From Arabidopsis thaliana (taxonomy: Eukaryota > Streptophyta > Magnoliopsida > Brassicales > Brassicaceae), in assembly GCF_000001735.4 (NCBI RefSeq), contig NC_003075.7, forward strand, positions 2,667,001-2,731,000: a stretch of DNA of 64,000 nucleotides, read 5' to 3'. The notes under the pieces are model-generated. The model was given only the letters and a program-made list of their open reading frames with translations. It was not told the DNA's origin and searched no databases. Made by a program: the position numbers and the translations under genes. Positions 24,280 to 49,012 of the stretch are shown piece by piece (within the stretch, counting starts at the first letter, position 1; the number at the start of each line of letters is the position of its first letter).

Positions 24280-24400
24280 TTTATTTCATTGACTTAAGAA
24301 GAAACACGTAAAGCAAGAAGGTATATATGGGCCAATCCTAAATGAGTGAAAATATGAAACCAGAGTAAAACTTTATTTACAAAACAATCACTTTCTCTGT
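24280..24400 (+). promoter_or_regulatory. Shared UBL promoter block, copy b
   Basis: Contains TTTCATTGACTTAAGAAGAA, ACACGTAA and GGGCCAATCCTAAATGAGTG, in the same order and spacing as the block before UBL copy 2. It lies about 100-180 bp upstream of the ATG at 24460. Confidence 0.55.
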
Positions 24401-24459
24401 CTCCACTCTCTTTTCTTCATCATTCTCTCCATTGATCTTGAAACTCCATTAATACGATT

Positions 24460-26560: not shown

Positions 26561-26679
26561 CAGTGACGAGGCTTTCATTGACTATAAAATGTCCCATATT
26601 CAGTGACGATACTTTTCTCGCTCTTCACTTTCTTCTTCATCAATCTCTCCATTGATCTTGAAACACCATTGACAGAATT

Positions 26680-27459
26680 ATGGATGTGTACTTCGAAACT
26701 CAGAATGGCAGAAAGTTTTGCATTGAATTAGGTTACTGGGACACAGTGTTGGAGATCAAAAAGAAGATCGAGAAGTATCAACGTATCCCTGTTCCCAATC
26801 AAACCCTTTTCTTCGGCAATGCTCTTGAAGACCATCTTGATATCGGTCAATGCAAGATTCTCCAAAACTCTCATGTCGTACTCTTCGTCCTTCCAGACCC
26901 TAATGACAACAACGATCAAGTTCTTCAAACGGAGGAGCAACCTCCTATAATCGGAGATCTCATTTACGGTGAGGATTTGCCTTTGACAACTGAAGTTGTT
27001 TTGAATATTCGACCTTTTTGCCCAGTTCAAGATTCTCCGGTGAGAAACAACGATCAATCTCCACCGTCAGACGCAGCAAAAGATATCATCAAAGGTCATC
27101 AAGATTCGCCGGTGAGAAACAACGAGCAAACTCCACCGTCAGACTCGGTTAAAGAGAACACTAACATTCAAGATTCGCCTGTGGGGAAGATAATACTAAC
27201 ATTACGGGTGATGCCATATTCCGGCAAGATTAAAGCTGCGAAGAATCTTCATTTTATTACGTACAAGACGTATAGGGTGAAAATGCTGAGACAAGAGTTG
27301 GTTCAGAATGAACTAAGGGATCATTTAGATCGGCCTCAAGATGGTGATTATTTCTTCGTACACAAAGGGAGAGTATTGAACGAAGATCAGTCATTCGAGT
27401 GGAACAGTGTTGCTCACACTGATATTGTTGAGATCGTTCCCGATCCGTGGCTCTATTAG
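26680..27459 (+). CDS. Ubiquitin-like protein with two UBL domains, cluster copy 4
   Basis: Single exon, 259 aa, ATG at 26680 (MDVYFETQNGRKFCIELGYW). N-terminal UBL at residues 1-73 (VLEIKKKIEKYQRIPVPNQ). The middle repeats a short acidic and Pro-rich motif, DSPVRNN...PPSD, two to three times. A C-terminal UBL-like domain spans about 168-255, with VKMLRQELVQNELRDHLDRP, DYFFVHKGRVLNEDQSFEWN and the end DIVEIVPDPWLY. That second domain matches those of copies 1 and 6. There is no Gly-Gly. The leader ATTGATCTTGAAACACCATTGA just before the ATG is shared with the other copies. Likely At4g05260. Confidence 0.85.
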   Translation: MDVYFETQNGRKFCIELGYWDTVLEIKKKIEKYQRIPVPNQTLFFGNALEDHLDIGQCKILQNSHVVLFVLPDPNDNNDQVLQTEEQPPIIGDLIYGEDLPLTTEVVLNIRPFCPVQDSPVRNNDQSPPSDAAKDIIKGHQDSPVRNNEQTPPSDSVKENTNIQDSPVGKIILTLRVMPYSGKIKAAKNLHFITYKTYRVKMLRQELVQNELRDHLDRPQDGDYFFVHKGRVLNEDQSFEWNSVAHTDIVEIVPDPWLY

Positions 27460-27764
27460 GTCAAATTCAAGACTTTTGGTTTTATTAGTTTTTTCTTTTA
27501 GGGTTTATAGTCTTTCTTGAAGTTTCTTGCTTTGTGCAAAGTTTGCTTTTGGTTTCACAACTTTCTTCATATATTCTAAGACATGTAATTACCTACAAAG
27601 AATTTTGAAATGAAAATTGTTCTTATTGAATAATGAAGATGAATTAAGCTAAGTTTGTAGAATTGATATGCGAATTGGAAACTGGAGAAAGAGAACAGAT
27701 ACATTCGAATTTTTATCCTTTTTTAAAAACATTACGTTGGATAATTTTAGTAAGATTTAGATTC
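27460..27764. other. Intergenic, no gene
   Basis: 3' flank of UBL copy 4, AT-rich; nothing else seen. Confidence 0.5.
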
Positions 27765-27870
27765 TTCGAGGAGGCTATTGACTTAGGGAACACGTAACCG
27801 AGAAGGTTAATATGGGCTAAGCCCAAGTGAGTTCTATTTAATACGTTCATTAAATGATATAAATACTAAA
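27765..27870 (+). promoter_or_regulatory. Shared UBL promoter block, copy c
   Basis: Contains GGCTATTGACTTAGGGAACACGTAA (as two adjoining pieces), then GGGCTAAGCCCAAGTGAG, ATACGTTCATTAAATGATAT and a TATA-like ATATAAATAC before the ATG at 27939. It is the same arrangement as copies a, b and d. Confidence 0.55.
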
Positions 27871-27938
27871 CAAATTCTCTACAAAACAATCACTTTAATT
27901 ATCTCTCTTTTTCTTCATCCGTTTCTATTGATAAAGTT

Positions 27939-28328
27939 ATGAAGTTTCTCGTCGAGAATCTGAATGGTTCATCATTCGAACTTGAGGTTGATTACAGGGA
28001 TACACTGTTAGTGGTCAAACAAAAGATCGAGAGGTCTCAACATATTCCTGTTTCCAAACAAACCCTTATCGTCGACGGCATTGTTATTCTTCGAGAGGAT
28101 CTTACTGTCGAACAATGCCAGATCGTCCCCACTTCTGATATCCAACTCGAAGTCTCATCTGACGATGATAACCCTAATCACAACGACTGCGATCAAAAGC
28201 CGCAAACCGAGCAATCTCCAGCACTACCATTGGTTTCAGCGGAAGAGTACTTTGAGAGACAAGATTGGCCTTTGACAGCAGAAGAGCTGAGACAGATTTA
28301 TAGTTATCGGCCTGAGCATGAAGGTTGA
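27939..28328 (+). CDS. Short UBL protein, cluster copy 5
   Basis: Single exon, 129 aa, ATG at 27939. It has a UBL fold (LEVDYRDTLLVVKQKIERSQ, then TLIVDGIVILREDLTVEQC) and a short tail ending QIYSYRPEHEG. It is closest to copy 6 at 47765 (shared KQTLIVDG, EEYFE.QDWPLT and IYSYRPE) and not to copies 1-4. The DNA after the stop still resembles the continuing frame of copy 6 (Asn-rich stretch, then CGAGCAATATCCACCGTCG), so this is a shortened version of a longer ancestor. Likely At4g05270. Confidence 0.85.
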   Translation: MKFLVENLNGSSFELEVDYRDTLLVVKQKIERSQHIPVSKQTLIVDGIVILREDLTVEQCQIVPTSDIQLEVSSDDDNPNHNDCDQKPQTEQSPALPLVSAEEYFERQDWPLTAEELRQIYSYRPEHEG

Positions 28329-30065: not shown

Positions 30066-30074
30066 TTATATAAA
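30066..30074 (+). repeat. Left target-site duplication of the 17-kb MULE
   Basis: TTATATAAA, repeated exactly at 47157-47165 next to the other predicted end of the element. Nine bases is the standard MULE duplication length. Confidence 0.7.
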
Positions 30075-30580
30075 AAGAAATTTTCACAGAAGTGGACGAA
30101 AAAAGATTTGCTCTCACCGTTTGTCAAAGTGAGAACTGGTTTTCACGTTTTGTCTTTTCATTCAATTTCGGACCAAATTACCCTGGGAAAACTTAATAAT
30201 GGCACAAACCAAACCGTGCAGCAGTTCGTATCGGTTAAGTTGACGGCGTAAACCAAACCCTACAGCAGTTGGTTTCGGTTTAGTTGATGCGGTTCAGTTT
30301 TGAAAAAGACAAAAAAAAAAACTGAAACGAAGAAACCCGAGAAAACGAAAAAGAGAAGAGAGTAACGGAGAGATTTGAGAGAGAATCAGAAAGCGAAACG
30401 AAATTCAGTATCCATTGCTTCAAAATTCGACATAACTTCGAATTGTTGGATAGTTGAATTGAGCCACTGAACTCCCACATCCGGGGAAGTGAAAGTTACT
30501 GTTTTTCTCGGCGAAGCCAAGAGAAAGTTACTGTTTATTCCGGCGAAATTTGAACCTCCGGCGAGATAGCATCTTTAGCT
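30075..30580 (+). other. Left arm of the MULE
   Basis: Holds the degenerate terminal inverted region and the probable promoter and 5' leader of the ULP1 gene (purine-rich AGAGAAGAGAGTAACGGAGAG near 30350). Two imperfect copies of a motif AAACC..C.GCAGCAGTT.GT.TCGGTT lie at about 30210 and 30255. Confidence 0.5.
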
Positions 30581-33500
30581 ATGGCTGGGAATAAAGCTAA
30601 CGACGAAGTCCCGAGGAAGCAGCATGGTCCAGGGAAGGAGAAGCGGGTATTAAGAGTTTCCCCGCGGAGAAAACGCTCTGCGACAAAGGCAACGGAGGAA
30701 CTGGGTTAGAATCTCTAATTTACCGTTTGTTGTCTTTGGGTGTATCAGAATTGTAAAGCTTGTTTGATTAAGGGGTTAGAATTTGTCGGAATTTAGCATA
30801 TCTTTAGGATGAAAAATTGAGAAGTAGAATTGGAAATCTCTGTTTCCGCCAAAAATATGATTTTGAGTTATAATCTGGAAAATGTCTGTGTACGTACACT
30901 ACTTCGGTTTGCTTAACAGTATATGACTTTTAATTGCAGGTAGTCCAAGTGTTGCTCCGACTGAAGATCTTACAGTTGAAGAGTTACCACCAAGACTCTT
31001 TGCTTTAGACCGGTACCCTTCCGAGACGAAGATGAACGCGTACTCTAAACCGGAGTACATTTCTGACATAGCAAATGTACTAAAGGGGAAACCAGAGATG
31101 CAGTTTCTTCTCGATTCTCCATTTGGGGAACTTTTTAAAATACCCAAAAACAAGGCATCTTTCAATGCTAAGCTTGTCCTTAGACTAATATGCCGTAAGT
31201 TAGTGACAAAGAAGGTGAATGAGATGTGGATTGTATTCGGCGGTCATCCAATCAGATTTGGATTAAGAGAATTTAGTATCTTAACTGGGCTGGAATGTGG
31301 GAAGTATCCCAAGAAGAAAGACGTTGATGATGTTATCAGTGTGAAACCTGAGTGTGAGAGTGTTTGGAAGACTCTGTTTGATGAGAGGTTTTGGGACACG
31401 GTTCCAACAATTGCTGATTTGGTGAGCTGGCTGTAGGAGGAGGAAAGCATGGAGGGGTGGAAGCAACTGGCACTATCTCTTTTTATTTTGGTTGACGGTG
31501 TGGTAGCGGCCCACAGTAACCCCAACAGGCCTACTTCGAAGACTGTCGAGATGACTAAGAACCTGGAGTTCTTCTGCAAATACCCATGGGGAAGGGTGTC
31601 CTTTACCCGTACTTTGGGGAGGATAGCAAATTTCCAAACTCCTTACGATGCTCAATAACTAATAAGGGGTTTACTTGTAGGGTCTTATGCACTCCATGGC
31701 TTCTCATTAGCTCTCCATCTTTTAGCTTTCGAAACAATCCCATCAATTGCTAAGCTAGGACCTGATGATGTACCTAACAGGACATTTGCTGAGAGGTCTA
31801 TCCATCGTCTTGCCTCTCTGCGAGCAATCCGGACATCTCGCATTTTGGAGTGTGAGGCTGCTGATGAGGTGTGTTAAATTGTGTATGTACGTACATAATA
31901 AGTAAATGTACATTATCTATGGTTAACATACTTATTTGTGTAGGTTGAGGTCAACTATATTGTGAAACCAGCTGATAATGTTTGTCCTCCATCTCTTTCA
32001 TGGGATGATGAAGTTGATGATCCAAGGGTTGATTACATTGAGGCACTGTTGATAGATGGGCACCAGTGGCAGGAGGATGAATGGGTTGGAGGCTATGCTA
32101 GAGTACCAAAGCAGTTGCGCCCACCACAACTAGAAGAGACAGGTAAGTATAAGTATAAAGGTTGTTTACAAATTTTTTTGGTATTGCACCCAGAAGAAAA
32201 CCAATTAATAGCAGCAACTGGTCTATTGTAGATGTTAAGAGGAAACGAAATGCACCGGGCCCGAGCCCTAAAGAACCTGCTATGAAAAAACAGATATCTG
32301 AAATGGACTGTGATAAAGAAGAGAATGCTGAGGATTGTTTTGGAGAGCCTGTGCCTGAGAGGTTTATTGTTGAAATGAGGAGGTCTTTCAAGGAGCTGGA
32401 AGACCAAATGTATCAAATGCATGAAGATATGAAAGACTTTGTCCGTGACCAGATACGTGCTGTCCTTGATCCAAAAGGCAAAAGGCCAGAACAAACCATA
32501 CCTTCCCATGATTCGCGGGAACCACCTACTTCTATGGATAAGGCACCGGTTACTGCGAAGAAGCCATCGAGAAGGATGTCTACAAAAGGAAGCACTGAAA
32601 CGAGAAAGTCTTCAAGGCTGACTCGTGTTTCTCATGATGTGGACACTCCTGCACTTTCTGTTGGCTGTAATTCCAAAGAGGAAGATTTGGATATCCCTGG
32701 AGTACATACCACTGCTGTCGGCGGAAGAAAAAAACCTTCAAAGCCGAAGAAAAATGTTTCTTTTGCTGTTGACACTACTGAGCTACCTGATTCCAATAAG
32801 GAAGATATGCAAGGATTCATTGATGAACAGGTAAGTCATGTACGTACATTGCTAAATATTTTATAATCCATATGTATAACTGTACTGTCTGCTTCGATAC
32901 AGTATGGCGCTAATAATGAAAGTGATTTTACTGCAAATGATGGATTGGATTCTTCGGCCGCTGAAGAAGAGATATTAGACACTGGATTTTTAATAGTTCC
33001 TTATGCTGGATCCACACAATCCCATCTGGTATGTCGTCTACTAATACTCTTAACAATCTGTTTAAATGGTGTACGTACATATTCGCTTAAGAAGTTAGTT
33101 AAACTATGTTTCAGGATAGAGGAAATGTTGTTGTTGGTAAGACTGTCTTCTTAGGTTCAATGTCTGGGACTGTCTATGTTACACAGGAAGAGAGGCCTGT
33201 GGAAGAAGCTACTGTTGACACCGAGATGGAAGAAGTTCCATCTAATGTGTATGCAAGAGTTTCAGAGGTAGATCTTCTGGTAATCGTTATATACAGATTT
33301 CCATGACTATATGCATATATATTACATTAATTTCTCCACTTATCTAACGCTTAACTCTATGGTAGCCTATGTTTCAGGATAATGGACCAAAGGATGTTGC
33401 TGAACCTGGCTTAGTTGGTACCCATACAGGGGCCGATGAAATAGCTGATGCTGACATAGAGATGGTAGACAATCCATCAGGTTTACCTTCAACATCTGCA

Positions 33501-35477
33501 CAGGTATGTGTTAGTCACTTGTTCTTTTTCCATATGTGTACGCCCATAAGACTTTGCAAATTATTTTTGTTTCATAAAGAAGCAAGAGATGCCAGTGCAT
33601 CGACTGAAGCTAATGGTAGCGAGTCAGAAGAAACTTATGAGCCTTCTGATGGAGATACAGCTCACGTACCTGGCACAAGTGTACATACATTTTTGTCACT
33701 ATGTTTTGTGTACATATATATTGTTTCATACATTACTAAAAAGTTTCTTTCCGATGATAAATTCTACAGGTTGAGGCGGCAGGAGAATCCAAATTAGTGA
33801 CAGAGATGGAAGTTGAAATACCTGAGAAGACCCACAGTGATCCCCCGTCACCATTTCAAGTAGTTAACAATGTAAGCTAACTCTTGCAACAAATAAAATG
33901 TACTATTTACTGTTCAAATGTATAAAATTTATATTATGCAGGTCATACGGGAGTTGGATACCAAAGCCGTTGGTGATTTGGCTGCAGCTACTGATGTGGA
34001 GGTAACAATTTGTGTGTTTTAATTCCTATTTTCGAAATAGCATGCATAGGATTATATGTGTACATTATATAGACTTGTGTACGTTAACTTGGACAGGTAG
34101 TCATGGAAGAGCCGGGTATTGTCGAGGGGTCTGTAGGAACTGAGGATCCTAACCCAGGGTCAGATGAAGCAGACAAGACCGATATTCCTAAAAATAATGT
34201 ATGTACCTATTTTAAAAATAGAAAAACGTATGAAACTGTTGTTGACAATCATATTTGTTAACAGGATGAATCAGACAATGCTGTTGCTGTCGAAGCAAAA
34301 GAAGAAAAAAAATCGTCCCCAAAGGTCCCAAAAAAAGTGAAGAATCAACTTGTCTATGAACAGGATGATGTCCATCCTCATGGTTTTAAGGCAAAAACAG
34401 TCTTGGTGCCCGATGTACCAAATCAACAGATAGAGGTTGTTATCAGGGCTGAAAATGTCTCATACAACCCCCTGGACATGGTTGACCCTTCAAAAGTAGA
34501 GGAATTCAGCAATATCATTAAAGGACCCTCTGTGTAAGTACATTATATTAAAATGGATTATTTAATATCTCAATCATCATTTTTCCAAGTCTTAAGGTTG
34601 TTATCAAATATTTTTCTGGATTTACAGGATTCACACTCTTTTCGGGTTTCGCAAAGTGCCCAACGAGTTTTTTGCGAACCTTCTAACACCTGGTGAATGG
34701 GTCGAAAGTTTGGTACGTTTCATTTATATTCGTACATTCCTTGTTATAAATTGTACATAGATGATTAAATTTTTCGTGGAAGTGTACGTACACTGATATA
34801 TTTTTTGAACATTTCAGCATTTAGAAAAGATGGCAATGTTGATGTGGCACAAGAACGGGGAACAGATGATAACAAACAGATGTATTGTATTGGACATGAT
34901 GCTGACACATCTACTTACCAAGCGGGTGGGCGACTTCAAGAAGTGTATTAATAAGAACGGGTTCAAATAGGGTAAATTACTGTCCGACATTGCTAATGGA
35001 GTTCACATAAACCGTGAACCCAATATGAAGTGGCTGAAGGATGTCGATGTTGTGTATGCTCCGATGAACTGGAAGAGTGAACATTGGGTTGCTTTGGGAA
35101 TCAACCTTAATGAACGGCTAATAACTGTGTATGACGCTTTAATATCGCACACGCGGGAGTCGGCTGTGAAGGCGAGAATGACTCCTATTTGCGAAATGAT
35201 ACCGTACTTAGTCAGAGCGATGTGCCAGGATGTATTGATTTCTCCGTACTCAGTTGAACCTTTTGAGTATGTGCGTTGTCCTACCGTTGCTCAAAACCCA
35301 ACTACAGGAGATTGCGGGTCATACACGATGAAGTTCTTGGAGTTGCTTGCGTTTGGACACCCTTTTTCGGAATTGACAACCATTCGAGAAGCAGATATGG
35401 TTTTCTACCGTCAGAAATACTCGGTTGACATCTACGAGCACGGCAAGCGGGAGGCCGGTACTGTGCACTTGCTTTAA
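30581..35477 (+). pseudogene. Transposon-borne DUF1985 plus ULP1-type (C48) protease gene
   Basis: Multi-exon gene of the MULE. It starts MAGNKANDEVPRKQHGPGKE at 30581. Exon 2 (from about 30941) is a DUF1985 domain: KLVLRLICRKLVTKK, MWIVFGGHPIRFGLREFSIL, TGLECG. A long Lys/Glu-rich middle follows, split into many short exons (32230-34540). The last exon is a C48 cysteine protease domain with His in EHWVALG, Asp in ITVYDA and Cys in GDCGSYTMKF (about 35074-35340), so the catalytic triad is kept. In-frame stops lie at 31434-31436 (TAG), 31656-31658 (TAA) and 34968-34970 (TAG), so the reading is broken in three places although the flanking protein is conserved. ULP1 enzymes release SUMO; transposon copies have unknown targets. 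Several introns carry TGTACGTACA. Likely At4g05280 region. Confidence 0.8.
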
Positions 35478-35742
35478 TCGTCCAAGAACAATATTCTGGT
35501 TCTTTGCAACCAATTATTATGAACAAACCTATCTTAGATATATGATTGCAACTACATTTAATTTGGAGATTGTCAGAAGTTAATTTAGTGTCCTCTATCA
35601 TATTGTCGTACACATCGTTCACTTCTAATTACATAATGTAAATGTGTACGTACATATCTATATGTCTCGTACACTGCATATTAACTTTATAACATAACTC
35701 AAGTGATAAATTGATTTGACAGCCAACGCTTACTAACACAAG
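35478..35742. other. Spacer in MULE
   Basis: Noncoding, with TGTACGTACA at 35645-35654 and further CGTACA-type half sites nearby (TCGTACAC at 35606 and 35668). Confidence 0.6.
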
Positions 35743-35842
35743 TATGACATTCATTTCAACCGTAATTGCCCCAACCAAATTCACAGTAGTGGTTATTAAA
35801 GTGAAGAAATTACTGACGATCTCTGACTATCTCATTTCAAAC

Positions 35843-36505
35843 ATGGTTAACCCGACTCTTCCCGACGATTTACTCTCGAAGATAGCTAAGAACCTGGCTA
35901 ACCAATGCTGGTCCGACCTTGGTCCACTGGTACGATCCGGCACTCGTGGAAGAGACATTGTCTACCGTCCGGATGTCCTCAAAGATGCCAATATTCTCAC
36001 CTTGTGTAACTCGCCCGATGACTTCCAAGCTTGAGGGGGCCACAATCCCTCCGGATCCGCTGATGAAGGCCGACATCGACCATTTTTTTTACGGTGTTTT
36101 GCAGCTAATAATCCCACGGCAGTGTATTACGAAGGTATTCGTGTTCTAACGCATGAACGAAACATCAATGGAGCCATCAGGCTCTTACAGCGTCATGCTC
36201 CAGTACGAGCAAATGCAACAGTTACATGCGCCATTGTATTCATATGTGCTGGGTATGATTATATGGGCGACTTGTTTCTACAGCTCTTCACCCGCAACCA
36301 TTATCCATTGGACTCGGTTGCCACTCGAATTTGGGTGATGAGTTTCTTCAAGGAAATAAAGAAGTTTGACCCTGCATACAACAATACATATGGTCCTACG
36401 TTCTCTTATCCTACCAGCCATGGAATTAGTATGCCTCCTTGCGCCTTATATTGTTACATGGTATCAGGAGCTTTCCAAAACGTTTGCAACCGCTGTTACC
36501 TCTGA
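35843..36505 (+). pseudogene. Cys-rich ORF related to F-box-associated TPR-like family, copy 1
   Basis: Reads MVNPTLPDDLLSKIAKNLAN from the ATG at 35843, then RGRDIVYRPDVLKDANILTL. A TGA at 36032-36034 interrupts the frame, after which it resumes (RPFFLRC, AVYYEGIRVLTHERNINGAI) to the stop at 36505. The order LPDDLL...motif, RPFF..C, YYEGIR, CAIVFICAG and a C-terminal C-x3-C-x10-C-x2-C cluster matches plant proteins like the putative F-box protein At1g67623 and At2g35280 (from memory). Compared with copy 2 it is 50-60 percent similar by eye. It is carried inside the MULE and its function there is unknown. Confidence 0.6.
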
Positions 36506-37173
36506 TCGTGTGCCAGGCGTGTTAGTCAAATGCTATAGTTAAAATCTAAAGTTGAATATTTTTCAGCCAAATTCGCATATGATATTTAGTTCCCGAAGTA
36601 AATGTAAATTTGGATATTAAAATCTAAGCGTCCACAACTACGTACACGTGCATCTACCAAATAATACTTAAAGGTTTTTTGTTTGTCTCGGAAAACTAGA
36701 TATGTACGTACACTAGCATGAGATATCAACTCTAACGTACACTAAAAAATAACACATTCAAACATATGAGGTCTTTGGTTTGTCTCATAAATGGTGATAT
36801 TTATGAATGGACGTACACTGATAGTACACTACAGCGTACACTGTTTGTTGGGTAAATGTAGAAATGTAAATGTGGACGTACACTACAACGTACACTGTTT
36901 GTTGGGCAAATGTAGAAATGTAAATGTGGACGTACACTAAAACGCACACTAAAACGTACACGTCTAGTTTTAAGCTGTTATTAAAAAGTGGTTGCTCATA
37001 ACAACAATAACAAATTATATATGGAATACTATTACGTTGATTTGACAATATGAATACACATCATCACTTAATACCTTTGCAATAAATACAACCATAACTT
37101 ACCCAACCATATCTTCAATGATGCTTATTTAAGTGTTGGAATTTCATTTTGTTAAAACACCTTACTCCTAAAT
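36506..37173. repeat. CGTACAC-rich spacer with a 54-bp tandem repeat
   Basis: Noncoding. Two adjoining copies of a 54-bp unit begin CGTACACTGTTTGTTGGG at 36835 and 36889, each ending in GTGGACGTACACTA. Further CGTACAC copies lie at 36641, 36734, 36812 and 36955, plus a full TGTACGTACA at 36703-36712. This is the densest cluster of the motif in the window. Confidence 0.8.
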
Positions 37174-37866
37174 ATAACAAACCCAAATATTCATGATGAT
37201 TTGCTTGCGAAGATAGCCAAGAAAATGGCTGACAAATGTTGGTGGTACCTCGGACCTATGTTGAAATCCGGTCCTCGTGGAAGAGACATTGTCTACCGTC
37301 CGGATGTCCTCAAGGATGCAAACATTTTCAGCATGTGCGACGATCCCGATGACTTCTACGCGGTAGGCCACGATCCAAATGACATCAACTCCGAAGGTCG
37401 CTATAGACCCTTCTTCAAACGGTGCTTACAAGCTGGTAACCCCACGGCTATTTACCATGAAGGACTGCGTCTCGTTACACATGAGTCTGACATTCAGGGA
37501 GCTATCCTACACTTAGAGCGAATCTCCCCAAGGAACGCCGCTGCAACCCTTGCATGCGCAATTCTTTACATATGTGCTGGTAATGCTCACATGGGTGGTG
37601 TCTACCTTCGGCTCTTCGGAAGCAACCATTATGCTTTGGAATCGGAGGAGGCACGTGACATTTGTGAGGAGGTGCTAGAAGATATAAAGAAATATGGTAA
37701 TACTTTAAAATACACATACGCTAACAGTTTTTCGTACCCGGAATGTGGTGACTTAAGCACTCCTGAATGCGCAGAGATGTGTTACATGAGATCGAGACTC
37801 TTCAATAATCTTTGCAACCAATGTTACATCTGGTTGTGTGCTAAACGGATTAGCCAGATCCTGTAG
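37174..37866 (+). CDS. Cys-rich ORF related to F-box-associated TPR-like family, copy 2
   Basis: Open from the codon aligned with copy 1's start to the stop at 37864-37866. That start position reads ATA (37174-37176) where copy 1 has ATG, so the usual start is lost; the next in-frame ATG is at 37225 (MADKCWWYLGPMLKSGPRG). Text includes RGRDIVYRPDVLKDANIFSM, RPFFKRCLQAGNPTAIYHEG, TLACAILYICAG and a terminal CAEMCYMRSRLFNNLCNQC (C-x3-C-x10-C-x2-C). The long body without stops suggests recent function or recent loss. It belongs to the same family as the ORFs at 35843 and 38670 and lies in the MULE. Confidence 0.55.
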   Translation: MTNPNIHDDLLAKIAKKMADKCWWYLGPMLKSGPRGRDIVYRPDVLKDANIFSMCDDPDDFYAVGHDPNDINSEGRYRPFFKRCLQAGNPTAIYHEGLRLVTHESDIQGAILHLERISPRNAAATLACAILYICAGNAHMGGVYLRLFGSNHYALESEEARDICEEVLEDIKKYGNTLKYTYANSFSYPECGDLSTPECAEMCYMRSRLFNNLCNQCYIWLCAKRISQIL

Positions 37867-38669
37867 AGCTCACATTCGCCACGATCCTGTCATATTTATA
37901 AGTTTTTCATGCAACAATATGTGAGCTTTTTACGTTGATTATCAGTAATGGAAGTTTGTTTTTAATAATTATCACTTTGTAATTGATTCAAACATACTAG
38001 CTCAAACTACTCTAATATGAGACATCATTAACACAAAATAATAATAAAATAATAAAATATCTACGTACACGGTATATGATAATGTACATGTGGTATAGTT
38101 TAATTCCAACTATAAAGATTACATAGTGAGCGACGGTATAGTTTGTAAATGAAGACGAAAGAAAATTTGATTTGACGTCGTATAACACATATCTAGAAGA
38201 TTTCGCTCCATATTAATTACTCGCTGTCAAATACACACTAGAAGTGACCTCCATCACACTCTCATTAATATCTCTATTAGACATACACGGTTCCCGAGCA
38301 ACGTACTCAATTGATTTGGCAGATAAAATAAGTAAGTTAATGTTTATTTGAAAAGATTGTTAGTAAATGCGTTGACCCCTAATATAGCACTATACATGAA
38401 GCCATATTGTTCCACTTATATGCAATACAAACAGACGTTAACTCAACCTTCTGTAAGAAAACGTAATGAGTATTTTATAGACATACACGGCGCGATTATG
38501 AGAGGTACACAGTAGTTTGTTTAAATTAAAAGTTACTAATATGATGCACTAAATATACATCCACGTCACCCACCCACTTACATTGATGATTATTCCCCTC
38601 TTTAAAACTCATGTCAAACACACTTAGTTGAATACACGAATCCGTCTAAACCTCCTCGTTTGAAAAACA
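37867..38669. other. Spacer in MULE
   Basis: Noncoding AT-rich DNA, with CTACGTACACGG near 38062 and ACATACACGG twice (38282, 38483). No exon was recognised. Confidence 0.5.
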
Positions 38670-39308
38670 ATGCCTTTCCTACCTCCGCTAACCCCTCCAA
38701 CCGAGTTGTACCTAGGAATCCAATTGCCAAACCCCATAAGCATACTTGTCAACTACCTCCCCGTCAGCCAGACTCCCATAGAGACGCTAAGGAACTTAGT
38801 CAACAGTTGTGACATCAACACCCTTGCAATCGATGAATTCATGACGTGGCCGTCGTTACTCCAACCGGAGTCTACCTTCCGGCCATACTTCGAGCTGCTT
38901 GTAGAACGTGGATCCATCCCGGCGGTTTACCTTGAAGGTGTTCGCCAAGCGAGCAACTTCGTGACAGTAGCTCAGGGCCTTTCAGTCATGACAACGGTCG
39001 CTTTATCTGATCCCTTTGCTTGCTTCGCAACCGGTTTGTTCCTTACGTGTACTGGTAATCACTTGGATTTCCTCCCGATCAGCGAAAAGTTCTGGGAAAT
39101 GACACCCACCCTTGAAGCTGGCCACGCGGTTGCAGAGATGGTGATGTATCACATCAGCCAGCTTCACACTGAAAATGCTCGCCGCTGGGAAAGGTCTTGG
39201 AGGTTTGTCCACCCGCTGAGTTGCGTAGGGCAATGCACGTTCCATCATGGCTGCAGGGTTTGTTTTTTCTACTGGTACGCCAGGGAGATTGCTATATTCT
39301 GTGTATGA
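38670..39308 (+). CDS. Cys-rich ORF related to F-box-associated TPR-like family, copy 3 (intact)
   Basis: Single exon, 212 aa, ATG at 38670 (MPFLPPLTPPTELYLGIQLP). It shares the family core STFRPYFELLVERGSIPAVY followed by LEGVRQASNFVTVAQGLSVM and ACFATGLFLTCTGNH, and ends in a Cys-rich tail with C-x3-C-x5-C-x2-C (CVGQCTFHHGCRVC). It diverges strongly from copies 1 and 2, especially at the N-terminus. The uninterrupted frame and higher GC than its flanks suggest it is or was expressed. It may bind protein or zinc, but no F-box is evident. Inside the MULE, between the ORF pair and the nested LTR element. Confidence 0.6.
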   Translation: MPFLPPLTPPTELYLGIQLPNPISILVNYLPVSQTPIETLRNLVNSCDINTLAIDEFMTWPSLLQPESTFRPYFELLVERGSIPAVYLEGVRQASNFVTVAQGLSVMTTVALSDPFACFATGLFLTCTGNHLDFLPISEKFWEMTPTLEAGHAVAEMVMYHISQLHTENARRWERSWRFVHPLSCVGQCTFHHGCRVCFFYWYAREIAIFCV

Positions 39309-39815
39309 CGGATGCACACATATTTTGCAACACATGTGTATGCTTCGTTGAAAAAATTATGTTTTTTGATTCGTTCCAGTTTATTTATCTTATGAATTTC
39401 CCTTTATATAAACTGCCTGTCTTTTTTATGTTTCTGGCTTTTGAATGAATTACCCCTTTAAGTATTACTAGATGTCTTCGTGTACGTACACTATATAGTA
39501 CATTAAACTTGGTTTATCGTACATTGGGAAATTGCGTACACAACATAAGTATAAATCTAATAGTTTTTGATGTTGAAGGCACCAAAACTAATACACGTAC
39601 ACGATAGCGTACACCAGAAACTATACGTACATTGCGAGAGGATTTGAACTATAAAACAAGGCATGTACATAAAACAACAAATTAGATTAACATTTAAACG
39701 GAAACAGGAAAAAACAACGACTGAAATGTAGTTTGGTTCTTATGGAAACAACAACAACAACTGGGAAAGAAAACTTAATTGAAATGTAGTCTTATATTAT
39801 ATTAAAACGGAGAAT
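39309..39815. other. Spacer in MULE
   Basis: Noncoding, with TGTACGTACA at 39481-39490 and further motif halves at 39595-39640 (ACACGTACACG, GCGTACACC, TACGTACATT). Confidence 0.6.
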
Positions 39816-39820
39816 AATGG

Positions 39821-41966
39821 TGTAACGCCTGTGTCCCGAGTTAGGGAGTAACCCAGATCTTACACCAGCCGAATTCGAGGACGAATTCAGTTTAAGGGGG
39901 GTAGACATGTAACGACCGCGTCCCGCGTTCATAAAGAGGCCAAGTTGTTTTAGGAGAAAACTAGACCATGGTCAAGAAACGGACTAAAATACTTAGTCGG
40001 ATGAACGAGAAAGTTCAAGCTGAACCAGCTAGGTGAGCTGGACAAGCTAGGATGAACTAGCTAGCTAAGCTAGGTGAGCTTAACCAGGTGGAAGACTAGC
40101 TAGCTCAGCTAGATGAGCTGACCGACAGCTCGACTGAGCTCGGTGAGCTGATCGTGTACTGACCCAGCTGGGTGGTCTGGTCAGCTGACACTCGAGCTGG
40201 TGGACTGTGGTAGCTCACGGGTGAAAAGGTGTCTCGGCCAAAAGGTGTAAGGTCGAGCGGGTACCAACGAACGGTTGTGACCTTTTGGAAGGAACGGATG
40301 TGACCTTTTGGAAGGGTGCAAGGAACGGATGTGACCTTTCGGAGGGGTGCAAGGAACGGATGTGATGCTTCGGGAAGCATCCATTCGCCCCCTATATAAG
40401 GGAGGACGCCCAAGGCCTTTGAAATAATCTCACATCATCTCACAACATCCAAAACACCATAAAACATTCTTAAAGGAGTCCCAACACATCGTAGAGTTGT
40501 TGGTCGGAAAGGGGGTGCGGCTCGGCGAGTATAATTCGACCGAACTGATGCGCATGCTACCTCCCGGTCCAACGGTTCGATGGAGTGTAGATGATGGAGA
40601 GGGTAGACCGTTCGTCTTAGAGACAAATCGGATCTGGTAGACCGATCGTTGGATCGGATCGGCCAGACCGATCGTCAGACGGATCGGATCGGCCAGACGG
40701 ATCGGATCGGCCAGACGGATCGGATCGGCCAGACGGATCGGACTGACTGATCGTCGGACGGGTCAGATGGGACAGGCCGATCGTCTGACAGAACGGGACG
40801 GACAGACCGATCATCGGATGGGATGGATCGAGAAAAGTGTTCGAGGAAGCACAAGGATAAGTGCATCCGAGCACACCCAAGGGTCGCCCATGGATGCAAT
40901 CTTACCGGTAAAGGGAGAAAGCACCAAGAATGGGTAAGGAACGTGATTCACCATATAGGATCAACATCGCGGCCGCCTTCATGTATCTATCTCCTCAGCC
41001 ATGGTGAAACCGATCAGAGATCGGTAAGACCAAAGGGTGACTCGACGGATAACCAACGGGAAAGTCTACGGTGGGAACCGATGGACAAAACGGATGTTGG
41101 ACCCGCGAGCAAACCTAAGGCCGACGGAAGAAAGATTTCATGGGCTAGCCTACGATGATCCAGTGGATGAATCCACGGACCCTTGGGTGTGATAAGGATA
41201 TAGTTCGAATCGTATGGATGGATCAATAAGCCGAAAGCTTTATCGACCACCATAAACCGGACGGATAAACGGTTAGTAAACCGTGGGCGGTCGTAGTAAA
41301 TGACCGGATCGGAAACATGGATGGTTCGATAAGCCAAGGGCTCAATCGTCCACCATGGAACCGAAGGGGAGTACGTTTGGAGGACGGATGGACCAATAAG
41401 CCAAGAGCTTGATTCGACCATCGTGAACCAAGGGAATCGTACAATCCCCAATCTCTATCGTTGTACTTAGACCAGTGGGGTTGGTTGGTTGTATGGCTAA
41501 GTAACGATAGGGATTGGTTCATCAATTCACGACCGATGACGAGTCGTTGAACGAATAGAGTAAGGCGACAAACGGGCTAAGGAATCAAATACGCATATTG
41601 GCCAAGGTATGTAAAGATCTAGCTTATTAGTTAAGATAGACGTTTGGTAATTGACCGTGAAAGTAGGATAAAGGAATATGCGATTGTTTGGCTTAGAATG
41701 GTTAGCGAACATATGCATGTCTTGACCGAGTAAAGGATAGATCTAAGTCTAAGGGACAAAGACGATGAAACCGGTACAAGAGTTGGTTAGAATTAAACCA
41801 AGGTTAGAAAGACTTCCGCTGTGTAATAAGAGAGCGATTATAGAATTTAGCCTCGTAAAGGCAATTCTATGTTGAATCGCAAAAAATTAAGAGGTTCGGC
41901 CGGAGAGAGGCGCGAACTTGAGTACTACGTCGCCGGACGACGAGACGTCCGGGACGGGGTCTTACA
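39821..41966 (+). mobile_element. Ty3/Gypsy LTR retrotransposon fossil nested in the MULE
   Basis: Flanked by AATGG at 39816-39820 and 41967-41971, a perfect 5-bp target duplication. Parts in order: a much reduced left LTR (39821-39864, starting TGTAACG and ending TCTTACA), a short remnant of the internal region with a polypurine tract (AAGGGGGGTAGACA ending at 39907), and a long right LTR (39908-41966, about 2.06 kb, same start and end). Almost all of the internal region is missing, so it is a broken relic. The clean duplication suggests a fairly young insertion. The right LTR contains internal tandem repeats. Confidence 0.8.
40260..40740 (+). repeat. Short tandem repeats inside the Gypsy LTR
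   Basis: GGAACGGATGTGACCTTT recurs three times or more at 40285-40360, and CAGACGGATCGGATCGGC recurs at 40675-40740 with an 18-bp period. Frames that cross these blocks are repeat artefacts and not genes. Confidence 0.8.
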
Positions 41967-41985
41967 AATGGTTCATTCCCTCTAG

Positions 41986-42934
41986 CTAAAAAACCACCAT
42001 CGAGATATCCGCAACTTCTGGTCTGTCCGGATTGGCAACCACCTTTGAAATAGCACCATGGCTCTCAAGCTTCGGGTTAGACAGTTCGGTTAGACGCCAA
42101 AAGCTGAGTGCGACAATAAAATTTCCCTTACCCAAACTCTGAAAGTAACCATCCAAGTACTCCGCCTGTTGATTGCGGGCTTCGCACTCCAAGACTTCAT
42201 TGCTACGTTAGAAATATGGACAGTTAGCGTTTAGAGTGACATTGTAAATAAAACAAATGAAAAGAACACTTACTATCTATCTTTTATCTTGAAACTCAGT
42301 TTGAGACCGTAATAGTCTGTAGTCAATGCGCCAACATCAACCAACGCTCCAACGACATCTAGATGATGGAGAAACAAAGATAATAAACAAAAATTTTCAA
42401 AAATGTAATAAATGAAGCATCGGAGTTATTCTTCCTCACCGACTAAAACGTTCTTGTAAGCAGATTTCTCCAAAATGTAGTCGAAGGGAGTGAAATCGAA
42501 ATCTGGAACTGGTGGTGATCTCGGTGGGGCCTGAACGACGACGGTCCGATCCATAAACAGTATGTCGTATTCATGCTTTGTTGCTCTGACTGAGTCAGTT
42601 GACTTACGGACCAAGAAAGAGGTGATCGTCTTCCACTCATTTTCAACGAATCGGTCTTCGTAAAACGGAGCAAGGCGACGATCAACGGTGGCCTCAATAC
42701 GGTTATTCTTTACATACAGAACATGATAGTAGACAGTTTAATATACAAGTTAAGCGAATGAACGAGAAAAACACATAATGATTTGACGGAAATTACCGCG
42801 TAATCTGCCAGGATAAGGCCGAGTTCGAAGACGTTGGGCGATATAACCTTCTTGAAGACTCTCAAGTCAAAGACATAAATTCGCCACCCAGTGATCAGAG
42901 GACACAATTCTGAGACCATATGAAACCCCTCCAT
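41986..42934 (-). CDS. RPA70-like OB-fold protein (DUF223 type) in the MULE
   Basis: Four exons on the minus strand fit without a break. Exon 1 is 42934-42797 (MEGFHMVSELCPLITGWRIY). Exon 2 starts at 42707 (NNRIEATVDRRLAPFYEDRF) and leaves at a GTGAGG donor within VLVG. Exon 3 reads VVGALVDVGALTTDYYGLKL. Exon 4 reads NEVLECEARNQQAEYLDGYF and ends DISMVVF at 41986. The text matches the plant family of RPA1-like/DUF223 proteins, which carry single-strand DNA-binding OB folds and are often found in Arabidopsis repeats. The protein is about 240 aa, shorter than full RPA70, lacking its usual C-terminal zinc domain. It ends about 15 bp before the Gypsy insertion. Confidence 0.65.
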
Positions 42935-43516
42935 CTCACGGATAGCAAGAACAAGCGAATCGAAAGACTAAATTTTTATTTGTGAATGATATAACTGCCG
43001 GCACAAGAAATGGGTTTAAAATGAGGATTGTGGATAAAATTAAGGAAGGGAGGAGACTTAAATAGAGGAAATCTGGAACGGCTACAGTTATTAATGCGGT
43101 TCCAACTACACTTGATTCAAATTTTTGGTAATAGCTTGGTAACCGTCATATAGGGTAATTATTACGTTGATTTGACAATAAACATCAACAGTTACGTCCT
43201 TTCCATTAAATACCAACACAACCACAGTATACCCAACCATGTCTCCAACTCCGTTCATTTAAGAGGGGGAATAAGTTAGATTTTCAAAAAACTTATTTGA
43301 AATTACTCAAAATATTGAGCAACCACCTCTATGTACCCTTATTACATGAACTTTAACACGTACACAGACAAAAACGTACATAGTTATACAAACGTAGAGT
43401 TTAAACGTACGTACACAACGTACATAGTTACAGGTGGATTATATATAAACTTACGTACACCGAGAAAACACAGAAGCGTACACTATATTGGCAGGCTCAG
43501 AAACTTGTCACCAGAA
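42935..43516. other. Spacer between the RPA-like gene and the transposase
   Basis: Noncoding, probably the RPA-like promoter and the transposase 3' flank. CGTAC-type motifs cluster at 43360-43480 (ACGTACGTACAC at 43405-43416, ACGTACACCG at 43453). Confidence 0.5.
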
Positions 43517-46455
43517 CTAGATTGGATTTTTGCACATCTTCTTGTTATGACCTGCTTGTCGACAGCGTGAGCACTGATTTGGTAAAAGTCTTTTCTGTCT
43601 CTTTTTCTGAAGTGACAAAGACAGGAAGTTAAAAATCTCCGCATGGTAATACTCAAAATACAAGTAGATGAATGAACGATGTTAGTACATACCCGGTTTT
43701 CACCTCTAGATGGGATCCTTTTGGACAGTGGTCTTCCTGGTGGCCGTCTACTGTATAGAGGAATGAGTATCAAATCCACTATATGTTGTGGGATGACAAC
43801 ATCTTTCGGATCCGCGATAGGTAGAATTGGTTCTTGGAAAGAATCAGAAAACGTTTGAAGGCCATACCACCATCCGACACAAGACTTCGGATCAATTCCA
43901 TGCTTGATTGCAGCTGCTAGAGCGTGTTCACAAGGGATTCTTAGCTTGGTGTACCTAAGACACGTACACGTACACTGGTCCAGAACGACATGAAAATGCT
44001 CACCGGATTTACTTGTCACTTGATAGCTCCACGGTCCAGACATCTTCACAGCGTATTTACCTGACGCAGGCAACTCTTGTAGAAATCTCTCATCAACCTC
44101 AGGTGTCACAGAAGATTTGCACCTAGCAACTTTCTTCCTCCTCGATGCGAACCATCGCATTAGGACATCCCGAATGAACTCGATCATGTAAATAATCGGA
44201 TAAGTTTTTGCTTTTGTTAACACATGATTCATGGACTCAGAGCTATTGCTAGACATGATATTGTAGCGTTCTCCTCTACAGTGAGCTCTTGTCCAATGCT
44301 TAAATCCTATGTCCTCTAGGTATTTTGCGCATTTAGCACTCTTTTCCCTTAACAGTTCAAAATATTTCTCGAAATCCCTGACCCTATAAGCTTTGGCAGC
44401 GCTGAAAAATAAAGCAGACACACCAAACTTACCATAATAGGTGGAGAGGTTTCGCTCAAGGTGAACAACACATGCTCCATGATGCGCTCTCGGGTAAACA
44501 ACACTTAGGCCTTTGTATATAGATGAATGTCTGTCCGAGACAATCATTAAATCGTCACTGTCTGGAACAATCTCAGCTAACTTTTCAAAAAACCATGCCC
44601 AAGAAGCATCGGTCTCACCATCAACAACACCAAAAGCTATTGGGAATATTTGGAAGTTCCCATCTTGGGCACATGCAATAAGGAGACATCCTTTGTAAGG
44701 TTCGACTAGCTGCGTTCCATCTACTACAACTACCTTCCTCATATATATCAGACCTTTGATAGAAGCCCCAAGAGAGACAAAGACATACTTGAAGCGCTGC
44801 TTACCATCATCTTCTGGTGTATAGTGTAGGTGTGTTATTGTACCCGGATTAGCTAATTGGAGAAGATACAGATAGGTCGGCAAAAACCTGTAATTTGCTA
44901 TCTCATCCCCCCTTACATTTTCCACTGCAACCTCTTTTGCTCTCCAAGCGGTAGAATATGAAATCCGCACATTCAGATCATTTAGGAGCAGCTGTGGTAA
45001 ATCGACAGCTCGCGGCCCACCCTACGTAGAACTGTATCTGCTCCTCACAACTTCCCCGAGGAGCTTATAATTAGCATGTTTAATGTAGTTCTTCCGAGAG
45101 TCGATGTTACACGTATGTGTCGTAGCATACGAAGTGATTTTGAAACTTTCTGAATCCTTCACGATGCAAGCAGTCAATTGCCATGGACAAGTCTCATCAA
45201 CGCACACCATCTTTAATGTTTTAGGACATGACTTAGGTTGCTTGAAGCAAAAGCATTGCTTTATCGCTTGAAGAGACATTGTTTGTTGCAGGACTTTTCT
45301 ATTCTTAAAAACACTTCCAACAAACAAAGTTTCGCCTGTGGTGCTGATTTCAACCTGTGTCTCATCAGCTCGAAAATTGAGTAAGTCATCGAACACAGGA
45401 GCAGCATCGTTACCGAGATTCGCCAACTCGCCACCATGTAACTTAGGAAATTCATTATACACTTGGTAAGCCTCAGCTGCGGTAACTACCCCATTATCAT
45501 TCTGTGTCCCAGTTGAGGAAGCTCCAATACCGTCGATCACTTCATCCCCGGTAACTTCGTCTATACAAATAAGATTGGAATCCTTTTGCCCTTCGCAGCG
45601 TGTACCGTAACCCAATGGAAAAATTGTTTCTTCGCCAGGTACACTAAGATCAGTGTACGTACACGTTTCCAAGAGACGACTGAATTCTCTTGTATCTCCG
45701 TCAGGTACACTAACACCCGTGTACGTACACGTTTCCAATAAACGACTGAATTCCCCTGGATGTTGAGCAGTCTGTTGAGTGAGATTGACGTCTTCCTCAA
45801 GATTTCCTTATACATATTCTTCTACTATTACATCGTTCCACTTGTTGTAATCGTATTTTTCGCCAATACCTTCACTACCGTCTGTGGTAGGATACATGGT
45901 ACTTCCCCCAATAGATCCATCCACACCAAGATAATCATCACACCCATCATCATCTTCGTTGCCCTCCTCCACTTCATCCTCTTCTGTTGTATCGTCTTCA
46001 ACATCGGCTTGCTCCTCTGCATCCTCATTATTTTCATCAACATTTGTAGCACTATCAAACACACGGTCACTTTCAGAAACTTCACCATGAGACCTAGAGA
46101 CAGTATTCCCGAACGCCTTCACTGTATTATTGAAAGAGACGAACAAGTTGAGAGAAAGATACCCACCACAAACAAAAAAAAACGTTTCGAGACCCATCTG
46201 ACTGTCAATGTATACAGGAGGGCGTTTAGTATCTATCAGCACTGACATTTCTCCCGGCATCCAGTAGCTAATTATGGGATTGATCTCGGTGGACTTCAAA
46301 CTGAAAGCCTCTCGGAGTGTACGGACAAAGTCCGTGTACGTCATGGTTTCCTGAACGCGTACACAACGACCAAAGATGCCTTCCTCAGGTTCAAATTTCC
46401 ATTCTCCTTCTTTGCATTTCCACTCACCGACCATAGTAAATACGGGAATATCCAT
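43517..46455 (-). pseudogene. MuDR-type transposase of the MULE (two in-frame stops)
   Basis: Starts MDIPVFTMVGEWKCKEGEWK at 46455 and has an acidic linker (DEVEEGNEDDDG). A TAA at 45808-45810 breaks the frame, then a duplicated segment, EFSRLLETCTYT, occurs twice. A mutator-type zinc DNA-binding domain (DETCPWQLTACIVKDSESFK...THTC) follows, and a second stop, TAG, lies at 45022-45024. The catalytic core is intact: VVVDGTQL (first Asp), IVSDRHSSIYKGL (second Asp) and the downstream helical region. A SWIM zinc finger (CTCTCLRYTKLRIPCEH) comes next. After an intron the last exon has a CCHC knuckle, CSRCRQAGHNKKMC, and stops at 43517. Domain order is that of MURA/VANA transposases. Two stops make it inactive as read, unless readthrough or splicing avoids them. 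Confidence 0.85.
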
Positions 46456-47156
46456 AACCCACCTGCATCATAAATTCAGGAGACACACATTAAATGCAAC
46501 TGAAAAATACTATACATATAAAAAACAAATGGAATGTCGATACTACACATTTATAAACCTAAATACCAATTATCATTTGACTATTTTAAACAAACAAATA
46601 TAGATTTTGCAAATTTTCTGATAAAAAAATGGAGTTAAAACACAATCAAGATCCTAATATGACATAACAAAAAACTTCTTAAAAGAACTTCATTACTTAC
46701 ACGAGCAATGCTTGTTTTGGCTCCAAACTTGGTACAAAAACAAGATCAACACTTCTTCAACAGCAATGTACGTTCTTAATTTTTTATTAATTATTATCAA
46801 TAATTTTTTTAATATTATTTGATGTAATGATGATTTTGCATTAATTGTGACAATAGTCACATCTAAACTTTTTTGGGGCATTAAATGTTGATGTCACTTC
46901 GGAATAATGAAAATAATCTCACTTGTAACGGAACCGAATCGCGTCAACGTGAAACAAAAAATCTTCAACTGAATCGGAACAGTGTACGTAACTAAACCTG
47001 CTAAACTAAACCGTACATTTCAACAGTTACTAAGAGAGAAGCGCAAGGGCAGAAACGTCATTTTGCAGGCGAAAAGACAAATGGTGAAAACCACATTTGA
47101 CTTTAACAATCCATGGAAATAAAACATGGTCAACGGGTGTGGCCTGCAATTTACCC
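46456..47156. other. Right arm of the MULE
   Basis: Probable transposase promoter plus the degenerate terminal inverted region (best match to the left arm at 47071-47093). GTGTACGTAAC is at 46982. The end reads GGCCTGCAATTTACCC and is followed directly by the duplicated TTATATAAA. Confidence 0.6.
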
Positions 47157-47165
47157 TTATATAAA

Positions 47166-47665: not shown

Positions 47666-47764
47666 CTATCTTTACAAAACAATCACTTTCTCTCTCGCTC
47701 TCTCTGTTTCTTGACTCTCTTCTTCATTAGTCTCCATTGATCTTGAAACACCATTGATAGAGTC

Positions 47765-49012
47765 ATGAAGTTTGTGGTCGAGATTCTGGGTGGTTCATCG
47801 TTCGAGATTGAAGTGGAACGCACAGATACATTGTTAGTGGTCAAACAGAAGATCGAGAAGTCTCAACGTGTCCCAGTTTCGAAACAAACCCTTATCGTCG
47901 ACGGCATTTTTATTCTTCGAGAAGATCTTAACCTCGACCAATGCCAGATCTTCCACGATTCTCAAATCCAACTCGAAGTCTCTCCTGACGTGAACCCTAT
48001 TCACAACAACGACGATCAAATCCCGCAAACAGAGCAATCTCCTCCAGCACCGTGGATTTCAGTTGAAGAGTACTTTGCGGAGCAAGATTGGCCTTTGACA
48101 GAGGAAGAGATCAGAAAGATTTACAGTTATCGGCCTGAGACAACCCAAGACATCAGTAAGATTCAAGATGCGCATCAAACAGAGGAATCTCCACCGTCAA
48201 ACTCAGTCAAAGAGACCGTTAACATTCAAGATTCGTCTGTGAAGTTTGCGAGTAAGAACAACAACGATCAAGTGCCTCCAACGAAGCAATTTCCACAGTC
48301 AAACTTAGTCAAAAAGATCACTAACGGAAAAAAAAGAGTCCGGCAGATGCTAGTATATGTGTCGCCATATCCTGGTATGAATGAAGTCCCAACGAATATT
48401 CTGGTGCAAGTGAAAGTTACGGATGAGGTGAAAACACTGAGAGGTCTTATGAAACTGGCTCAAGAAGGGTACATCTTTACGCACAATAATCAAGTATTGA
48501 ACGAAGATCAGTCATACGAGTGTAACAGTGTTAAACCCTTGGATACAATTGTGATTGTTCCCAGACGTGTTATCCAAGAGACCAGTAAGATTCAAGATTC
48601 GTCTGTGACGGTTCAAGTGCCTCAAATGGAGCAATCTCCAGCGTCAAACTCAGTCAAAGAGATCACTGACCCGAAGAAGAAGATTAAAGTATATGTGGTG
48701 GCAGCTTCAAGTGAGTGTAAAGGTCTGAAGAGATTTATTGAGGTGGATGTGAACTCGACGGATCAAGTGAAAATACTGAGAACCGAGTTGGTTGAAAGTG
48801 GTCGGAGGGGTCATATAAGAATGCCTCACGAAGGATATTTCTTTGTGGACAGAAAGAAAGAGAGAGTATTGAACGAAGATCAGTCATTCGAGTGGAACCG
48901 TGTTCTTCCAGCCGAAACAGTTTATATGGTTAGTGGACGTGATACACATTTTGCCTCGTCTTTTACTCGTGGCTCTAAAGTCACAATGCTTTGTGCTCAA
49001 AAAGTTCTGTAG
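47765..49012 (+). CDS. Triple ubiquitin-like domain protein, cluster copy 6
   Basis: Single exon, 415 aa, ATG at 47765 (MKFVVEILGGSSFEIEVERT). Domain 1 (residues 1-75) has LLVVKQKIEKSQRVPVSKQ and LIVDGIFILREDLNLDQC. Two further UBL-like domains span about 195-275 (QMLVYVSPYPGMNEVPTNI, VLNEDQSYECNSV) and about 298-395 (IKVYVVAASSECKGLKRFIE, RVLNEDQSFEWNRV). The last two share the VLNEDQS(F/Y)E motif found once in UBL copies 1 and 4. There is no Gly-Gly end. It is the longest copy and probably shows the ancestral arrangement from which copy 5 was shortened. Likely At4g05310. Confidence 0.85.
   Translation: MKFVVEILGGSSFEIEVERTDTLLVVKQKIEKSQRVPVSKQTLIVDGIFILREDLNLDQCQIFHDSQIQLEVSPDVNPIHNNDDQIPQTEQSPPAPWISVEEYFAEQDWPLTEEEIRKIYSYRPETTQDISKIQDAHQTEESPPSNSVKETVNIQDSSVKFASKNNNDQVPPTKQFPQSNLVKKITNGKKRVRQMLVYVSPYPGMNEVPTNILVQVKVTDEVKTLRGLMKLAQEGYIFTHNNQVLNEDQSYECNSVKPLDTIVIVPRRVIQETSKIQDSSVTVQVPQMEQSPASNSVKEITDPKKKIKVYVVAASSECKGLKRFIEVDVNSTDQVKILRTELVESGRRGHIRMPHEGYFFVDRKKERVLNEDQSFEWNRVLPAETVYMVSGRDTHFASSFTRGSKVTMLCAQKVL

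Follow-up and report, generated by a model that had tools for sequence, protein, structure and literature searches.

A palindromic motif dense in a decayed VANDAL-like transposon of Arabidopsis thaliana as a likely target set of a VANC-type DUF1985-Ulp1 protein

VANC proteins, a class of transposon factors, reverse silencing at selected addresses. According to passages of Hosaka 2017 (PMC5735166), these anti-silencing factors, in which the domains DUF1985 and DUF287 are present, bind short motifs that are dense in the noncoding DNA of their own family. VANC21 is described there as binding YAGTATTAY, a motif that is dense in VANDAL21 introns, spacers and ends, and lies partly in tandem repeats and mostly in one orientation, and as causing methylation to be lost there; VANC6 is described as acting like VANC21 with the motifs AGTTGTCC and AGTTGTAC, and the events after VANC binding are named as an open question (PMC5735166). 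Part of a review states that VANDALs carrying the DUF1985 plus Ulp1 architecture, which it terms KIU, direct hypomethylation to their own group by recognizing motifs in it (PMC13317346), and a section of a meeting report mentions a then-unpublished crystal structure of VANC21 (PMC8756742). VANC anti-silencing in VANDALs is therefore already known, and the system described here is not a new kind. Here we report on a 17,082-bp VANDAL-like Mutator-like element (MULE) that lies in a 64,000-base stretch of A. thaliana DNA (contig NC_003075.7, positions 2,667,001 to 2,731,000; hereafter the window) and contains a DUF1985-Ulp1 gene. We consider it likely that a VANC-type DUF1985-Ulp1 (KIU) anti-silencing protein, which intact family members would encode, has as its target set the RTGTACGTACAY palindromes of this element together with its single RTGTACG sites.

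The 10-base core of this motif, TGTACGTACA, is present in ten exact copies in the window, all within the element. An earlier reading made from the sequence only had named ten positions for this palindrome, and each of them was exact, with no other copy in the 64,000 bases. Its estimate that the chance expectation lies far below one also agreed with our count, as dinucleotide shuffling gave a mean of 0.03 copies and a maximum of 1, and none of 100 shuffles reached 10. Allowing one mismatch to TGTACGTACA raised the count to 20 (1.10 expected), with 19 inside the element. TGTACGTACA and its parts stood at the top of every list of 7-, 8- and 10-mers enriched between 28 and 47 kb relative to the rest of the window. 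The many CGTACAC half sites said to lie between the palindromes were likewise recovered (39 at 28-47 kb and 3 elsewhere, both strands).

The fuller form of the site is the 12-bp palindrome RTGTACGTACAY, which fits all ten palindromes. With both strands counted and each palindrome taken as two sites, the element contains 54 TGTACG sites, including 34 single ones. The base 5' of TGTACG, which played no part in choosing sites, is a purine at 53 of the 54 element sites versus 4 of 8 outside the element, and the sole non-purine site (41438) is inside a nested insertion. A purine also precedes 29 of 30 single sites when the palindromes and the array at 36824-36950 are left out (p 5.8e-8). Ten of the 31 TGTACGT sites extend to palindromes compared with a chance rate of 1.9% (p 2e-10), indicating that the symmetric form is favored beyond the half site. 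The palindromes at 45654 and 45720 are copies of a single 66-bp tandem repeat. Among the other 44 palindrome pairs, the top flank identity of 0.417 equals the 99th percentile of 2000 random pairs, and the median over all 45 pairs is 0.30 versus 0.28 for random stretches; we therefore count approximately nine independent occurrences of the palindrome. Eight of the ten fall outside tandem arrays, three of which contain the motif. The word AGTGTACG, which is located partly in tandem repeats, shows a strand bias (13 minus, 4 plus; outside palindromes, 9 minus and 2 plus). The intact form RTGTACGT occurs 41 times in the element, where the deaminated forms RTGTACAT and RTGTATGT occur 9 and 5 times, and the corresponding counts outside the element are 2, 2 and 11. 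The central CpG of the motif thus mostly survives in the element, counts that alone do not establish protection.

We observed that the density of TGTACG differs strongly between the parts of the element. It is 10.4 per kb in the introns of the DUF1985-Ulp1 gene, 7.2 in other noncoding DNA, 3.0 in the transposase frame and 0.47 in the nested insertion, compared with 0.17 outside the element and 0 in the DUF1985-Ulp1 exons, in three small open reading frames (ORFs) and in the pieces of a DUF223 gene. After the two sites of each palindrome were merged into one locus, the element holds 44 loci in 17,082 bp versus 8 in the 46,918 bp outside it (p 3.7e-18), and the DUF1985-Ulp1 gene holds 8 in 1,252 bp of intron versus 0 in 3,645 bp of exon (p 1.8e-5). 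When up to 2 mismatches are allowed, 8 of the 13 introns have a site and none of the 14 exons does, versus 3.8% of 3000 intron-length windows drawn from outside the element. TGTACG sites reach as far as 47012, close to the right-hand boundary of the element and beyond the span that the sequence-only reading had given. As a separate observation, multiples of 6 bp are overrepresented among the distances that separate motif sites from 30889 to 47012 (period 6.0, R 0.455), in a scan of about 250 periods over pairs that are not independent.

The splice model of the DUF1985-Ulp1 gene was predicted from GT..AG boundaries and open phase, without transcript confirmation, and joins DUF1985 and the Ulp1 C48 domain, as in the KIU genes of Kaonashi elements, in one 14-exon frame that is interrupted here by three internal stops. 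We take this gene to be AT4G05280. The first DUF1985 piece (30927-31433) matches residues 47-129 of the solved VANC21 chain 9lnj_A (E 2.8e-6), and PF02902 matches the Ulp1 domain at positions 61-215 (E 2e-56) and 2-57 (E 3.7e-5). As DUF1985 occurs in VANC proteins according to passages of Hosaka 2017 (PMC5735166), these passages and the VANC21 chain match give good support to assigning the gene to the VANC family. In a search of the PDB, neither the second piece of DUF1985 nor the stretch that follows it matched a chain, and nothing was returned at 0.001 for the Ulp1 piece, for which the loosest limit gave SENP5 (0.091) and a Ulp1-like protease (1.1). DUF287 was not found in the parts of the gene scanned, which lie downstream of the first exon. 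Structure prediction of the DUF1985 exon from a single sequence gave a mean predicted local distance difference test score (pLDDT) of 38.9.

The features of the element are VANDAL-like. It has a MULE transposase gene, a VANC-type gene with DUF1985, degenerate inverted repeats with a 9-bp target site duplication, and a family motif that is dense in its noncoding DNA, though the motif is also present in the transposase frame. Target site duplications of VANDALs are 9-11 bp long. Here the duplication, TTATATAAA, is the only exact 9-mer common to the two stretches searched; near matches to it abound, and by itself it would be unconvincing. The subterminal arms form a 39-nt ungapped alignment with 32 of 39 positions identical and a score of 25, which none of 1000 random pairs reached. 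We accepted the ends of the element because the 9-bp duplication is in register with this subterminal inverted repeat.

VANDAL21 (Hiun) is alike in being a MULE with degenerate terminal inverted repeats, a transposase gene and a DUF1985 gene, and in having a short motif dense in introns and spacers; the two may also be alike in the partly tandem placement and the prevailing orientation of the motif, and their DUF1985 regions are homologous (VANDAL21 as described in passages of PMC5735166). In contrast to RTGTACGTACAY, the VANDAL21 motif YAGTATTAY is asymmetric and free of CpG, and we found 0 copies of it in the present element and 2 elsewhere in the window. The gene described here also differs from VANC21 in adding a Ulp1 domain, DUF287 being absent from the parts scanned. 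VANDAL6 and VANC6 represent the same system, and their AC-type motif AGTTGTAC has TGTAC in common with RTGTACGTACAY; it is found only once in the window, within the element, and AGTTGTCC is found 0 times in the window. The comparison with published VANC motifs that the sequence-only reading had proposed therefore came out negative, with neither the VANC21 nor the VANC6 motif enriched in the element, and this points to another specificity if the same mechanism applies. RTGTACGTACAY is neither of these motifs and is palindromic with a central CpG. The Kaonashi (KIU) VANDALs share the DUF1985 plus Ulp1 gene, and they are reported to hypomethylate their own group via motifs (Hoen 2006 and another reference, as cited in PMC13317346). 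A loose common pattern, AGT-AT-TAC in VANC21, AGT-TG-TAC in VANC6 and AGT-G-TAC in the present element, is suggestive only. The TnpA protein of En/Spm binds a 12-bp subterminal motif and counters methylation, and so resembles the proposed system as a transposon protein with a short repeated motif and an anti-methylation role; En/Spm belongs to another superfamily and has its sites at the ends only, while those of the present element are internal.

The sequence directly shows a dense motif that the DUF1985-Ulp1 exons lack, as well as the gene content and the homology between DUF1985 and VANC21, and from these we infer that intact copies of the family may exist, that their protein would bind the motif, perhaps dimerizing on the palindrome, and that demethylation would follow. 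In this mechanism, intact members of the VANDAL-like MULE family would encode the DUF1985-Ulp1 (KIU) protein, which would bind the sites in introns, in spacers and in the right terminal region. Binding would lead to DNA methylation being lost across the element, allowing the genes of the family to be expressed and its copies to move. Unrelated host DNA would be spared, as sites there are rare and isolated. The present copy appears decayed. As both its VANC-type gene and its transposase gene are interrupted, it probably now serves as a passive target of a VANC produced elsewhere and not as a source.

Several observations weigh against this reading. The DUF1985-Ulp1 gene of the present copy has three internal in-frame stops (31434, 31656 and 34968), so this copy probably no longer encodes the factor. 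The sequence-only reading had named the DUF1985 protein as its candidate for the factor, and that choice is upheld as to family by PF09331 and the VANC21 chain match and is qualified, for this copy, by the three stops. No site within 2 mismatches is found in 5 of the 13 introns, and the transposase frame contains 9 of the 54 TGTACG sites, including both sites of 2 palindromes, which means that the noncoding rule is not strict. The proposal of a VANC-type target set drew support from the VANDAL-like MULE anatomy and from the concentration in introns and spacers, and is qualified by the sites that the transposase frame holds. The nested insertion contrasts only weakly with the element around it (1 merged locus versus 43 in the remaining element, p 0.04), and all of the p values for site density are too small, as tandem and palindromic sites are not independent. 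Finally, the spacing of the motif gave no clear helical signal, with p 0.29 at 10.5 bp and an uncorrected p of 0.018 at 11 bp (63 pair distances). Sasaki 2022 (EMBO J) reportedly describes at least ten systems, Ulp1-containing VANCs and a helical periodicity of the motifs.

We weighed four other explanations of the motif. Host SPL (SBP-box) factors, whose sites have the core GTAC and the consensus TNCGTACAA, might bind the sites and drive transcription of the transposon. The CGTACA core is indeed common to the published SBP site, as given in a portion of PMC10796333, but the SBP consensus needs an A after CGTACA, a position that in the element is filled by a pyrimidine at 53 of 54 sites and by an A at 1 of 54. 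TNCGTACAA itself is absent from the element, its 2 copies in the window both lying elsewhere, and the sites are scattered over introns and spacers, so that we regard control by SPL factors as improbable. A slightly smaller chance still is given to the view that tandem or segmental duplication, or a quirk of composition, spread the motif with no protein to read it. The motif does lie within three tandem arrays, and the palindromes at 45654 and 45720 share one repeat unit; yet the flanks of the palindromes, with this pair excepted, are about as alike as random stretches, dinucleotide shuffles yield 0.03 copies, and the DUF1985-Ulp1 exons have none.

That the sites serve transposase binding or end recognition, like the subterminal repeats of En/Spm, seems to us highly improbable. 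Three single sites do fall in the rightmost 400 bp of the element, but sites occur throughout the interior and are densest in the DUF1985-Ulp1 introns, the leftmost site is 814 bases from the left end of the element, and the 39-nt subterminal repeat contains no motif site. The sites could also work as RNA elements of the short introns, either a splicing signal or a small-RNA precursor, an idea to which we give hardly any weight. One intron site begins 8 nt past its splice donor, and introns of AT4G05280, the presumed identity of the gene as given above, appear in a list of mirtron candidates in a portion of PMC3278437. The motif is nevertheless also dense in spacers, present in the transposase frame and found on both strands, and it is missing from 5 of 13 introns.

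Going beyond a VANC-type target set as such, we propose only tentatively, and consider rather doubtful, that a Ulp1-bearing VANC reads the 12-bp palindrome as a dimer, with binding that may depend on methylation of the central CpG, that it belongs to a specificity class separate from those of VANC21 and VANC6, whose motifs are asymmetric and free of CpG, and that the tethered SUMO protease is its likely effector in removing silencing from the element. The palindromic address of a Ulp1-bearing family would offer a probe for binding, dimerization, sensitivity to CpG methylation and the role of the protease, and RTGTACGTACAY might serve as one more address word in sequence-specific epigenome editing.

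Table 1. Features of the VANDAL-like element and its motif sites (positions in the window)
Feature	Position	Strand	Remark
Whole element, 17,082-bp MULE without long terminal inverted repeats, VANDAL/Kaonashi type	30075..47156		MULE, DUF1985 and C48 domains within
Left target site duplication, 9 bp	30066..30074		TTATATAAA
Right target site duplication, 9 bp	47157..47165		TTATATAAA
Subterminal inverted repeat, left arm, degenerate	30121..30159	+	begins 46 bases inside left end
Subterminal inverted repeat, right arm, degenerate	47071..47109	-	begins 47 bases inside right end
DUF1985-Ulp1 gene, VANC/KIU type, 14 exons, 13 introns, 1214 codons	30581..35477	+	splice model; PF09331, PF02902
DUF1985 domain, two pieces divided by stop 31434	30927..31655	+	PF09331 E 2.4e-17, 4.3e-12
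Ulp1/C48 SUMO-protease-like domain, last exon, divided by stop 34968	34818..35474	+	PF02902
Palindromic site	30889..30898		intron 1
Palindromic site	31886..31895		intron 2
Palindromic site	32839..32848		intron 4
Palindromic site	33070..33079		intron 5
Palindromic site	34783..34792		intron 13
Palindromic site	35645..35654		downstream of DUF1985-Ulp1 gene
Three related small ORFs, first broken between two frames near 36031	35843..39308	+	
Palindromic site	36703..36712		spacer
Motif array, 54-bp and 12-bp tandem units, single sites in one orientation	36812..36961	-	
Palindromic site (39481) and single-site cluster	39481..39631		spacer
Nested insertion, TG..CA ends, 5-bp duplication AATGG, motif-poor	39821..41966		1 TGTACG in 2,146 bp
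DUF223 gene fragment	41989..42967	-	PF02721 E 2.2e-20, 6.7e-13; 41989-42207 itself without match
Single-site cluster	43358..43482	-	spacer 3' of transposase frame
MULE transposase frame, VANA-like	43483..46455	-	PF10551, PF04434, PF00872 in 43486-45021
66-bp tandem repeat, one palindrome per unit (45654, 45720)	45624..45753		open in transposase frame
Three single sites, right terminal region	46767..47017		upstream of transposase gene

In the transposase frame, PF10551 matched with E 6.3e-18, the SWIM and Transposase_mut domains also matched, and the match of DBD_Tnp_Mut in 45025-45807 was below its cut-off. The frame is interrupted by stops whose first bases on the minus strand are 45810 and 45024, and the one at 45810 could sit in an unrecognized intron. 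In a search for relatives of the transposase in the viral_contigs and genome_contigs collections, 7 and 17 stretches, respectively, matched a pattern, and none was confirmed. The 66-bp repeat at 45624-45753 introduces no stop into the frame, in which it would give a repeat of 22 residues. TGTACGTGTACGTGT (43963-43975, minus) encodes the CTCTC of the SWIM finger, with two motif sites on cysteine codons.

Between the DUF1985-Ulp1 gene and the transposase frame, the first two small ORFs gave matches to TPR_27 (8.8e-5 and 1.1e-5), both below cut-off, and TPR_27 is absent from the third. ORFs one and two are 77% alike over 182 nt, and ORFs two and three align with a score of 85 versus a shuffle maximum of 45; the three are possibly captured and tandemly duplicated host genes. 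The DUF223 fragment may also have been captured by the element. DUF223 is an OB-fold. The nested insertion is probably a long terminal repeat (LTR) retrotransposon remnant, judging by its TG..CA ends, and contains two copies resembling an LTR start, 87 bp apart, at 39821 and 39908.

Outside the element, repeated ubiquitin-domain genes were observed on both flanks, at 20031-28316 and 47753-49012 (all three scanned matched), and one of them contains a 111-bp internal tandem repeat (24696-25312). An inverted repeat at 22495-23621, whose 265-nt arms are 94% complementary and separated by 597 nt, is possibly a small DNA transposon or a hairpin source. The window very probably lies on A. thaliana chromosome 4 next to UBQ10, as the stretch just upstream of the 457-aa open frame at 51559, a polyubiquitin of six ubiquitin units, matches the A. 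thaliana UBQ10 5' intron at 304 of 304 bases.

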